DNA from: Treponema sp.
Lineage (GTDB): Bacteria > Spirochaetota > Spirochaetia > Treponematales > Treponemataceae
Assembly: GCA_002749205.1 (NCBI GenBank)
Contig: PDOP01000043.1
Coordinates: 1-64,000 of the forward strand
Length of the DNA stretch: 64,000 bases
Direction of reading: 5' to 3'
A program made the position numbers and the translations under genes. This document shows positions 6,816-63,379 of the stretch, piece by piece. Every line of letters starts with the position of its first letter. The first letter of the stretch is position 1. The notes beneath the pieces were generated by a model, which worked only from the letters and a program-made list of their open reading frames with translations, had not been told where the DNA came from and did not search any database.

Positions 6816-6990
6816 TTTTATCGCTCCCGCTCTACAACCCGACGGGCTAGCATAATCTTCTGTCCTTTACTGAAAAATAAAAATATCGTCTCTAACAGAG
6901 CCGACTTTTCTTAAATAAAAATCGGACAGAAGGATAGACAAGCCCGTCCAAATCAGGTTAAATATTTTGCGAATAAGGCCGGTATCCTGC
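6816..6990 (+). repeat. TSE-1 structured element copy E2
   Basis: Outer GACGGGCT/AGCCCGTC (6841-6848/6941-6948); inner TTCTGTCC/GGACAGAA (6858-6865/6924-6931); apical CG-T-CTCT-aac-AGAG-C-CG (6887-6903); tail AAATCAGGTTAA...CCGGTATCCTGC. Confidence 0.85.
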
Positions 6991-9317: not shown

Positions 9318-9558
9318 AGTATTTTTTGAAAATACTTCATTCCTTCGCTGCTAATATCGTTGCGCGTGCGTGGCGAAAACCGTCTATCCTTTCGTCCGCT
9401 CAAAATTTAAAAAGAAAAGGTGGTTGTAGCGAAAGCGGAAAACACCGATTAAGAAAAACATATAAGGACGAAAGATTATGCGGTTGGAGCGGGTTGCAAA
9501 GTAAAGTGTTGTGGAAACAACAATTTAATACTGTTTCTCATTTCAACACTTTACTTTA
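9286..9558 (-). repeat. TSE-1 structured element copy E3
   Basis: Inner CTTTCGTCC/GGACGAAAG (9389-9397/9466-9474); outer AACCG/CGGTT (9378-9382/9481-9485); apical GGTG-[G.A]-TT..AA/CACC (9419-9446); extra hairpins GGAATGAAGTATTTT/AAAATACTTCATTCC (9311-9325/9329-9343) and AAAGTAAAGTGTTG/CAACACTTTACTTT (9498-9511/9544-9557). Confidence 0.8.
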
Positions 9559-17728: not shown

Positions 17729-17807
17729 AAAAACTCCTTGAACCAAAACCGAATTATACACTAAAAACAAACTTTAATAAAGTGCAAAAATATACTTTTT
17801 ATTTTAA

Positions 17808-17936
17808 GAGGGGGAGCCTCCCCCTCGCTTGCAAAAAATTGCCTTTTTTCTTTTTTTAAATTATATCGAGTCTTCGTCCCTACAGCCTCGATTTCTTATA
17901 AATTTAAGCAAGGCAATTGTTTTTCCGCTACCCCCC
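17808..17936 (-). repeat. TSE-2 element copy c
   Basis: GAGGGGGAGCCTCCCCCTC 17808-17826; AATTGCCTT/AAGGCAATT 17837-17845/17910-17918; inner ATCGAG/CTCGAT; TTTTCCGCTACCCCCC to 17936. Confidence 0.75.
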
Positions 17937-18047: not shown

Positions 18048-18254
18048 AGAATACCGGCGTGCTATACAAACTCGGTTAACCTGATTTTAAGCTCGCCGTT
18101 ATCCTTTTGTTTGATTGGTTTATTCAGTTAAAAGCGGCTCATTTTGAGACGCTGATTATTATGGCAGAAAAAAACAAAAGATTTAAGGCGAGCGCCGGTT
18201 GCAGAGCATTAAATCTTGAAGGATTTTACAAATCCTTCAAGATTTAATAGCGAT
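18048..18254 (-). repeat. TSE-1 structured element copy E4
   Basis: GCTCGCC/GGCGAGC 18091-18097/18187-18193; TTTTGTTT/AAACAAAA 18105-18112/18172-18179; apical GCG-G-CTC..GAG-A-CGC 18134-18152; extra hairpin TTAAATCTTGAAGGATTT/AAATCCTTCAAGATTTAA 18209-18226/18230-18247. Confidence 0.87.
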
Positions 18255-23919: not shown

Positions 23920-24152
23920 TTTAAACGCTTGAAATGTTAATTGAATACCCAAAAGGATTGATAAATACTTACAACATTTCAAGCGTGCAACCCGACGGGC
24001 TTGCATAACCTTTTTGTCTCTACCGTTTAGTTCCAATCGCTGTTCTACGCTTTCGCTTCGACCGCTCTTATCTGATGTACCAATCGACAAAAAGTGTAGA
24101 CTAAGCCCGTCCACGCACGCACTATCGTACTGACTAACAGTCCGGTATGCTT
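23920..24152 (+). repeat. TSE-1 structured element copy E5
   Basis: GACGGGCTT/AAGCCCGTC 23994-24002/24103-24111; TTTTTGTC/GACAAAAA 24011-24018/24086-24093; extra hairpin ACGCTTGAAATGTT/AACATTTCAAGCGT 23925-23938/23973-23986. Confidence 0.83.
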
Positions 24153-25291: not shown

Positions 25292-25466
25292 TCAGAATAC
25301 CAGAGAGTTACCCAAATTTGTTTAACATGATTTTAAGCTCGCCGTTATCCTTTTTGGCGTTTAAAATAATAACACAAGCCGGTCGCCGGTAGAAGAACGG
25401 CAAATCAAAATAATCAAAAAAGCCAAAAAGATTTAAGGCGAGCGCGGGTTGCAGAGCGATAGCGAC
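25292..25466 (-). repeat. TSE-1 structured element copy E6
   Basis: GCTCGCC/GGCGAGC 25337-25343/25437-25443; TTTTTGGC/GCCAAAAA 25351-25358/25422-25429; apical GCCG-G-TC..GA-A-CGGC 25378-25401. Confidence 0.85.
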
Positions 25467-32189: not shown

Positions 32190-32380
32190 TTTTGTGCAAC
32201 GCTTCGCTTTTGCCTTCCAACCCCACGAAGTGCTTGTATCTTTTTGACTTTACTTTTGCATTATAAGCAAGTTTTTCCATTTCCATTTCAAACCTTGCAG
32301 ATAGCTTTTATAAGCGTCAAAAAGGATACCGCACTTCTTAAAATCAGCCTATAATTAACACTTTTTCCGCCGGTTTTCTG
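32190..32380 (+). repeat. TSE-1 structured element copy E7
   Basis: GAAGTGC/GCACTTC 32227-32233/32331-32337; TTTTTGAC/GTCAAAAA 32241-32248/32316-32323; apical GCAAG-T-TTT..AAA-C-CTTGC 32267-32298. Confidence 0.87.
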
Positions 32381-32436: not shown

Positions 32437-32655
32437 AGAATACCACAGTGCAATGCAGTACGCTAATCGCGTGCGTGGAGCGGCGAAGTCTACATTTTTT
32501 GTCGATTAAAAAAAACAAAAAAGGTGGTCTGAGAAAAGAGCGAAGAACACCGATTAATATATTAACCAAAGACAAAAAAGTTATGCGAGCCGCTCGGGTT
32601 GTCCGCGTGAAATCTTGAAATTGACTTTTAGACAATTTCAAGATTTCACAAGCGA
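32437..32655 (-). repeat. TSE-1 structured element copy E8 (tail-to-tail with E7)
   Basis: GAGCGGC/GCCGCTC 32478-32484/32589-32595; TTTTTTGTC/GACAAAAAA 32495-32503/32571-32579; apical GGTG-G-TCT..AGA-A-CACC 32523-32551; extra hairpin GTGAAATCTTGAAATTG/CAATTTCAAGATTTCAC 32607-32623/32633-32649. Confidence 0.87.
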
Positions 32656-39639: not shown

Positions 39640-39820
39640 TAAGTGCAACGCTTACGCTTTTGCATCCACCCCTCGCCTGCCTTAAATCTTTTGTTTTTTT
39701 CTTATAAAAGCAATCGCCGTCTAATTACCATTAGCCGGCTTTATTTCTAAACACAATCAAACAAAAGGATATCGGCAGTCTCAAAATCAGAATAAGCGTA
39801 CTGTTTTCATTTTGGGATTT
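39640..39820 (+). repeat. TSE-1 structured element copy E9
   Basis: CTGCC/GGCAG 39677-39681/39774-39778; TTTTGTTT/AAACAAAA 39689-39696/39759-39766; apical GCCG-T-CTAAT-tacc-ATTAG-C-CGGC 39716-39739. Confidence 0.85.
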
Positions 39821-47659: not shown

Positions 47660-47862
47660 AATAAAAAAAGAAATCCCAACAAGGTAATCAAAACGATTAA
47701 ACTGATTTGGACATCTTGCCGGTATCCTTTTGTCCGATTAAATTCAGGCAAAAAGACCTTTGACCGGAGGGAAAAGCGTCTATTGTGTTTATAAAAAAGG
47801 ACAAAAGATTTAAGGCAGATGTCGGGTTGGACAGCAAAAGCGAAAGCGTTGCACAAAGTTTA
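47660..47862 (-). repeat. TSE-1 structured element copy E13
   Basis: GACATCT/AGATGTC 47710-47716/47817-47823; TTTTGTCC/GGACAAAA 47728-47735/47799-47806; GGGATTTCTTTT tail like E11. Confidence 0.8.
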
Positions 47863-54473: not shown

Positions 54474-54656
54474 TATGCAACGCTTGCGCTTTTGCATTTC
54501 AACCCTCGCCTGCCTTAAATCTTTTGTTTTCTTCTTCTAAAAACGATCACCGTCTCACTACCGTGAGCCGGCTCTACTTTTTAATACACAAAACAAAAGG
54601 ATACCGGCAGGCTTCAAAATCAGGTTAAGTATTCTGAAAATCCGGCCGGTTTTCTG
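54474..54656 (+). repeat. TSE-1 structured element copy E10 (representative)
   Basis: GCCTGCC/GGCAGGC 54508-54514/54606-54612; TTTTGTTT/AAACAAAA 54522-54529/54591-54598; apical CCG-T-CTCAC-tacc-GTGAG-C-CGG 54550-54571; tail CAAAATCAGGTTAA...CCGGTTTTCTG. Confidence 0.9.
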
Positions 54657-54695
54657 AACATAAGAGATTTTTGTTTACAACCGCCTGTCGAGGGA

Positions 54696-54825
54696 GGGGG
54701 TAGCGGAAAAACAATTGTCATGTTTAAATTAAGGTTGTAGGTTTTCTCTGACGGTTAGGAAGAGAAAACTCATGTAAATAATTTACATGGCAATTTTTTG
54801 CAAGCGAGGGGGAGGCTTCCCCCTC
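54696..54825 (+). repeat. TSE-2 element copy e
   Basis: GGGGGTAGCGGAAAAACAATTG; AATTG-t-CATGT / ACATG-g-CAATT 54713-54723/54785-54795; inner GTTTTCTCT/AGAGAAAAC; GCGAGGGGGAGGCTTCCCCCTC. Confidence 0.8.
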
Positions 54826-54857
54826 TTAAAAAAAATTTGAATATTTTTTTAACAGCC

Positions 54858-59559: not shown

Positions 59560-59726
59560 AAAGCAACCCTCGCCGGACTTAAATCTTTCTTCCTTATATG
59601 ATGATTATAATCGTTGTCTAAGTATAGCCAACTTTTCTTAAATTTTAATCGGAAGAAAGGATATCGTCCGGCTCAAAATCAGGTTAAACGATTTATTGGG
59701 CAATAAAGGGATTTCTTTTGATAACC
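59560..59726 (+). repeat. TSE-1 structured element copy E11
   Basis: GCCGGAC/GTCCGGC 59572-59578/59666-59672; CTTTCTTCC/GGAAGAAAG 59585-59593/59651-59659; apical GTTG-T-CTA-agta-TAG-C-CAAC 59613-59632. Confidence 0.88.
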
Positions 59727-63143: not shown

Positions 63144-63379
63144 ATCGCAAGCCTTTGAATTGAGCCTGTTTACACAGGCTTCAATTCAAAGGCTTTTGCT
63201 CTCAACCAGCGTCTGACTTAAATCTTTGTTCCTTTAACTGCTTGAAATAATCAAAGTCTCGATAGATACTTTTAGTCTCAATAATCGAGCCTTCTTTTCT
63301 GATTGATAACAAGCGGAACAAAGGATACCGTCAGACTTAAAATCAGTGCAAGCGTAATGTTTATCACGCCGGTTTTCTG
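63144..63379 (+). repeat. TSE-1 structured element copy E12
   Basis: GTCTGAC/GTCAGAC 63211-63217/63330-63336; CTTTGTTCC/GGAACAAAG 63224-63232/63315-63323; apical AAG-T-CTCGAT..ATCGAG-C-CTT 63254-63293; 5' hairpin AGCCTTTGAATTGAGCCTGT..ACAGGCTTCAATTCAAAGGCTT. Confidence 0.88.

Follow-up and report, generated by a model that had tools for sequence, protein, structure and literature searches.

We analyzed a 64,000-nucleotide stretch of a Treponema genome (hereafter, the window) and found that TSE-1, which has a core of ~130 bases, is a dispersed noncoding element and not a gene-linked regulator. Sequence comparisons indicate that it very probably represents an amplified lineage within the Flavo-1 superfamily that has diverged strongly. 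The element is probably a mobile cassette, and the overall explanation that we favor, with modest confidence, is a non-autonomous mobile hairpin cassette of the Flavo-1 lineage that is recognized through its folded strand. The Flavo-1 family is known; the sharing of the core alone, the alternation of strands, the indifference to flanking genes, and the lack of a terminator signature are new. With ~200 copies, TSE-1 reveals the folding strand, the ends of the unit, and the independence of the core from its surroundings, which single family members cannot do, and its amplification makes the nature of Flavo-1 directly testable. If the unit is indeed a folded single strand, a shape-defined kind of mobile cassette would be added to bacterial genomics.

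Copies of TSE-1 in the window and across the genome

The copy highlighted in the original prediction (E10, 54474–54656) is real, and its hairpin, core, and tail could all be located. Read on the plus strand, a small hairpin (54476–54496, TGCAACGCTTGCGCTTTTGCA), the sequence of which changes from copy to copy, adjoins the core (54500–54628, CAACCC...GGTTAA), the unit common to near-identical copies, and is followed beyond the core by a tail (54629–54656) ending in a conserved CCGGTTTTCTG motif, the rest of the tail being variable and often different between copies with near-identical cores. All of these parts are assigned to the minus strand, which is the folded one and on which the hairpin lies on the 3′ side. 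The core is one long interrupted hairpin consisting, from the outside in, of an AACC/GGTT base, stem X, an internal loop, stem Y (beginning ATC.../...GGAT), 2 A-rich linkers, and an apical hairpin. In E10, the X arm GCCTGCC (54508–54514) pairs with 54606–54612, TTAAATC (54515–54521) faces GGATACC (54599–54605) across the conserved internal loop, the Y arm TTTTGTTTT (54522–54530) pairs with 54590–54598, and the apical hairpin spans 54548–54571, all on the minus strand. The internal loop comes in 2 types, TTAA with AC in 69 copies versus GCATA with AGAC in 71. The predicted GGATACC motif accordingly reads GGATANC in about half of the copies, whereas the others have GGATAGAC opposite GCATAATC.

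A covariance model (R1) built from alignment A1, comprising 35 copies aligned by sequence alone, identified 12 copies in the window at E < 1e-4. Besides E10 (R1 start at 54498, plus strand), R1 matched the plus strand at 6834–6962, 23987–24122, 32217–32353, 39665–39796, 59562–59688, and 63201–63352, the last with an enlarged apical part, and the folded strand of all these copies is the minus strand; the copies at 9359–9498, 18075–18203, 25321–25453, 32463–32603, and 47696–47830 were matched on the minus strand and fold on the plus strand. The window thus contains 12 clear copies, compared with the approximately 13 originally counted; a weaker partial match at 17839 belongs to a second family described below.

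The model also reached beyond the window. In the whole draft assembly of the genome (G000; 1.91 Mb in 69 contigs, 91% complete), all of the best 150 candidates were R1 matches, and for 148 the E-value was ≤ 1.3e-11. We counted 175 distinct copies in ~750 kb around the top R1 matches (first 748 kb read) and ~25 further copies in 356 kb picked for lacking top matches, a total of ~200 copies in the 1.1 Mb read, from which we estimate ~250 for the whole genome. Almost all copies are intergenic: 134 of 140 fall outside open reading frames (ORFs), in sequence of which 85.5% is coding. Between genes in tandem, the strand of the element was split 40 versus 31, which is not significant, and a role as gene-linked regulator was rejected because the orientation of flanking genes has no influence on the element strand. 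The copies are arranged nonrandomly with respect to each other: all 13 pairs with a spacing below 700 bases are arranged tail to tail (in the window, the copies at 32217 and 32463 form such a pair), and of 75 neighbor pairs 0.7–8 kb apart, 59 have their members on opposite strands (p 6e-7), compared with 9 of 16 pairs more than 8 kb apart. This alternation might have arisen, for example, if the DNA separating direct repeats was lost.

In many copies, perfect hairpins whose sequence is private to the copy adjoin the core or sit in the tail. At many core edges these copy-specific hairpins measure 10–23 bp (in the window, for example, at 18204–18250 and 63160–63195), and a subclass displays a conserved ATGTTG...CAACAT within variable arms. 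A small hairpin, GAGAAAAATCA...TGATTTTTCTC, is found in ~12 copies (e.g., G000:C64:80811 and C31:2165), each time at one fixed position within the 3′ tail, and several cores (L029, G000:C45:33185, and G000:C33:1207) are interrupted just before GATAAC/GATAGAC by a hairpin-rich insert ending GGGTGATTATTACCC.

Covariation of the stems and the strand that folds

In the sequence-only MAFFT alignment of 35 copies, 93.9% of stem cells are paired, compared with 75.5% in shuffles, and 19 of the 22 stem pairs have changed on both sides. The covariation score is 0.518, in agreement with the prediction that the 2 arms change together; shuffles score 0.179, and partners slid by 1–3 columns score no higher than 0.127. 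Pair 5 of stem Y (counted from 0), for instance, is TA in 65 copies, CG in 38, GC in 22, and AT in 7. In the Y stem, copy pairs that are ≥88% identical differ by 7 single versus 2 double changes, whereas those that are 80%–88% identical differ by 144 double versus 47 single changes. The lead of single changes in close pairs and of double changes in distant ones reflects stepwise compensation under selection rather than instant copying from arm to arm. The internal loops are also conserved, and there is little mosaicism within the core (2 cases only).

The mismatches in stem Y reveal which strand is constrained. Across 172 copies, on the strand drawn in the original prediction, there are 24 A.C mismatches versus 2 G.T (p 1e-5), the latter sitting in 2 closely related copies. 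An A.C mismatch on the drawn strand corresponds to a wobble on the opposite strand, such that the reverse complement is the folded strand and the strand had been drawn the wrong way round; a cruciform formed by both strands, or pairing free of selection, would be expected to yield A.C and G.T equally often. We are therefore highly confident that selection acts on the fold of one strand. Taken together, the covariation, the mismatch bias, and the stepwise changes uphold the central claim that the fold, rather than the sequence of the arms, is maintained, and place this constraint on one single strand, the fold of which has been preserved by compensatory changes made step by step, mostly by way of G.U intermediates. 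Folding energy was discarded as evidence for the strand, because shuffles show an equal bias, which is accounted for by base composition alone.

The joint change of the arms, the scarcity of intermediates among distant copies, and 2 copy pairs in which X was swapped wholesale would also be compatible with an element that has no selected function and in which template switching or conversion between the arms of a quasi-palindrome keeps them complementary. Such a process, however, should leave A.C and G.T mismatches in equal numbers, and neither the precedence of single over double changes in close pairs, nor the conservation of the internal loops, nor the occurrence of the same fold in other genera fits with it; we regard it as highly implausible.

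Relationship to Flavo-1

A search of the window against Rfam gave no match. The Flavo-1 model (RF01705) in particular does not recognize the window copies at its gathering score (42 bits), nor does it match the copy E10 or, even with E up to 5, any of 15 loci in G000. An exact pattern search over 84,980 species genomes likewise yielded no match, and R1 had no match in 39 relatives, including 7 of the same genus; the same-genus relatives have 70%–72% of the isoleucyl-tRNA synthetase (IleRS) sequence in common with this genome. The impression that TSE-1 is private to one species, which had arisen from these 39 relatives, was dropped once copies and Flavo-1 kin were found in other genera. Specifically, R1 identified 1 copy each in G059 and G062, both of another genus, among 274 genomes of the family. 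A broader model that includes these 2 copies (R2) uncovered further ones in genera g33 and g4, which are laid out alike and also have a variable hairpin adjoining the core. Several of the R2 copies score above gathering with RF01705, which matches the strand that R1 and R2 do not; the Flavo-1 strand in relatives is thus the very strand predicted to fold from the TSE-1 mismatches. Copy numbers outside G000 are lower bounds, owing to strict filters.

The reverse comparison gave the same picture. A covariance model built from alignment A5, which contains copies from other genera only and leaves G000 out (R3), matches TSE-1 in G000, and all 12 copies of the window are among these matches, which always lie on the strand opposite to R1; in the window, the best score belongs to the copy at 32217 (E 3e-12), and the weakest match (32475) reaches only E 0.12. 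Furthermore, G000 contains an intermediate copy (C42:37939–38072), which is recognized by R1 with E 2.5e-11 and by Flavo-1 with 34.8 bits, below the gathering score, as well as 2 Flavo-1 copies above it (C32:5658 and C36:24335). Direct alignment of the C36 copy with the one at 32217 in the window showed that both contain GCGGTATCCTTTTTG...CAAAAAGATACAAGC. The chain of covariance models, the intermediate copy, and R3 tie TSE-1 to Flavo-1, so the earlier statement that no such family had been described fails, even though window copies are invisible to RF01705.

The window also contains, at 54685–54835 (plus strand) and 17798–17935 (minus strand), members of a second dispersed family, GGGGGTAGCGG...GCAAGCGAGGGGG, in which X, Y, and the apical part are arranged as in TSE-1. 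It occurs at ~30 places in this genome, and no convincing copy was found in 30 relatives. A weak match to R3 (17.7 bits) hints that this family, too, could belong to the Flavo-1 superfamily as a further branch. In G002 (C1:2587–2644 kb) and G063 (C1:201–257 kb), Flavo-1 matches cluster on one strand within Rhs-repeat loci that have TD-1 and TD-2 RNAs in their vicinity; a literature search on Treponema palindromic repeats, TD-1, and TD-2 returned no useful account. Separately, a SECIS_4 match (Rfam, 66 bits) at L120:1471–1508 suggests that the genome probably makes a selenoprotein.

The probable unit of spread and comparison with known systems

The median identity between cores is 68%, yet 18 copy pairs have cores that are ≥93% identical. 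Hence, recent spread, which had been considered excluded on the grounds that the arms differ between copies, is not. In one of these pairs (99.2%), C30:80680 and C11:29926, the cores have a single difference in 133 bases and the flanks are unrelated on both sides. C41:11252 and C65:47435 have the core and the tail in common but not the 5′ flank, whereas C21:21976 and C6:19932 have the 5′ side in common but not the tail; in a few pairs (C23:391/C35:20860 and C29:1045/C59:46755), the flanks are also in common. For the 20 most similar pairs, which make up the 2 top identity bins, flank identity averages ~0.62 on the 5′ side and ~0.56 on the 3′ side, compared with 0.46 for random pairs. The closest copies often have the core alone in common, CAACC...GGTTAA, their 5′ hairpins and their 3′ tails being unrelated, and the edges of the shared unit, C|AACC and GGTTAA|, coincide with the base of the hairpin. 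Near-identical cassettes in unrelated surroundings suggest that the folded piece itself spreads. Alternatively, the cores could be old and immobile, some of them having been homogenized by ectopic gene conversion, a process that could likewise transfer cores from one existing site to another. Near-identical cores with the same tail motif in differing flanks would be compatible with this, as would the outcome of our search for empty target sites: none was found, and the tail motif and hairpin almost never occur without the core. However, for RecA-type conversion a median core identity of 68% is low, and the edges coincide with the base of the fold instead of being placed at random, which makes conversion an unlikely source of the pattern.

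If TSE-1 is a mobile cassette, the folded single strand would be recognized by a trans-acting structure-specific enzyme and copied or swapped between sites, while the variable edge hairpins and the tail would be exchanged or inserted separately. We searched the genome for 3 enzyme families, within the limits of an assembly that is 91% complete and in which fragmentation into 69 contigs could hide a linked enzyme. Neither the reverse transcriptase of retrons, group II introns, and diversity-generating retroelements (PF00078) nor the Y1 transposase of REP/RAYT systems (PF01797) was matched in the genome. The tyrosine recombinases (PF00589) comprise only XerC, XerD, and a broken phage-type integrase, with no integron integrase among them. 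We also looked for an autonomous parent, that is, an ORF between 2 cores, and saw none; no gene family with 3 or more copies was present in ~750 kb. Among plasmids and phages, there was no match. As regards the terminal inverted repeats of miniature inverted-repeat transposable elements (MITEs), the ends of TSE-1 carry only AACC/GGTT.

The strand-specific wobbles and the stepwise compensation are classical signs of an RNA fold, and TSE-1 could accordingly be a structured noncoding RNA family, the copies being transcribed and selected for their RNA fold and the amplification being incidental or selfish through RNA. We consider this fairly unlikely. The orientation of the element relative to genes shows no preference, and wobbles occupy only ~2% of stem cells, which is low for RNA. 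The 3′ hairpin was rejected as an intrinsic terminator, since it is followed by A-rich and not T-rich sequence, and the terminator signature is therefore absent; moreover, the reverse transcriptase that would account for copying through RNA was not found. Flavo-1 is an RNA candidate listed by Weinberg 2010 and Rfam and unexplained since 2010 (PMC2864571); Rfam files it as an sRNA, and it has been listed among the most abundant sRNA families. In Flavobacterium psychrophilum, however, Flavo-1 matches lie sense or antisense to transcribed regions, with many outside, and their transcription is inconsistent (PMC9723704). For all these reasons, and given mobility, we lean toward single-stranded DNA rather than RNA as the recognized form, which would become accessible during replication or by extrusion as a hairpin. 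Extended to the Flavo-1 superfamily as a whole, the notion of a primarily mobile cassette of folded single-stranded DNA, as opposed to an RNA family, is a possibility that we put forward only tentatively; such a cassette would be defined by its shape instead of its sequence, and an enzyme would cut it at the hairpin base and copy or swap it from site to site in the genome.

Copies of TSE-1 might also be dispersed sites resembling the attC sites of integrons, the folded strand serving as a tyrosine recombinase substrate and the cores being exchanged site-specifically. As in attC sites, structure is conserved over sequence, one strand folds, the apical part is variable, and AAC...GTT lies at the exact edges of exchange, at the base of the single-strand fold. 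In attC, only one end recombines, whereas both ends of the TSE-1 core act as edges. The genome also yielded no integron integrase, and instead of a single-orientation array with cassettes, the copies are dispersed on alternating strands. The one-strand clusters of Flavo-1 matches in G002 and G063 had made an integron array seem likely there, but these Rhs-repeat loci contain no tyrosine-recombinase motif in the 100 kb read for each. Integrons have been described in Treponema, with an inferred ancestral attC of more than 100 bp (PMC3607928). On balance, an attC-like identity is quite improbable; TSE-1 may work like attC, but we do not file it as such.

Among other known systems, ERIC, BOX, RUP, NEMIS, and further stem-loop repeats and MITEs resemble TSE-1 in comprising many short, intergenic, palindromic, noncoding copies with no obvious enzyme. 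They have been described mainly by conserved sequence, whereas in TSE-1 the arms covary, the fold of one strand is constrained, and the edges of the unit coincide with the base of the fold. The TD-1 and TD-2 RNAs (RF03155 and RF03162) are, like TSE-1, hairpin-rich repeats of treponemes, and in relatives they adjoin homologous elements, but their fold is different and they have no matches in the window. The Flavo-1 RNA has the strand, the ATCC-stem...stem-GAT signature, and the interrupted hairpin in common with TSE-1; homologues in relatives and 2 copies in G000 reach its gathering score, and the profile free of G000 sequences finds TSE-1. TSE-1 differs from Flavo-1 in its ~200 copies, its own outer stem X, its AACC/GGTT base, and its behavior as a dispersed cassette.
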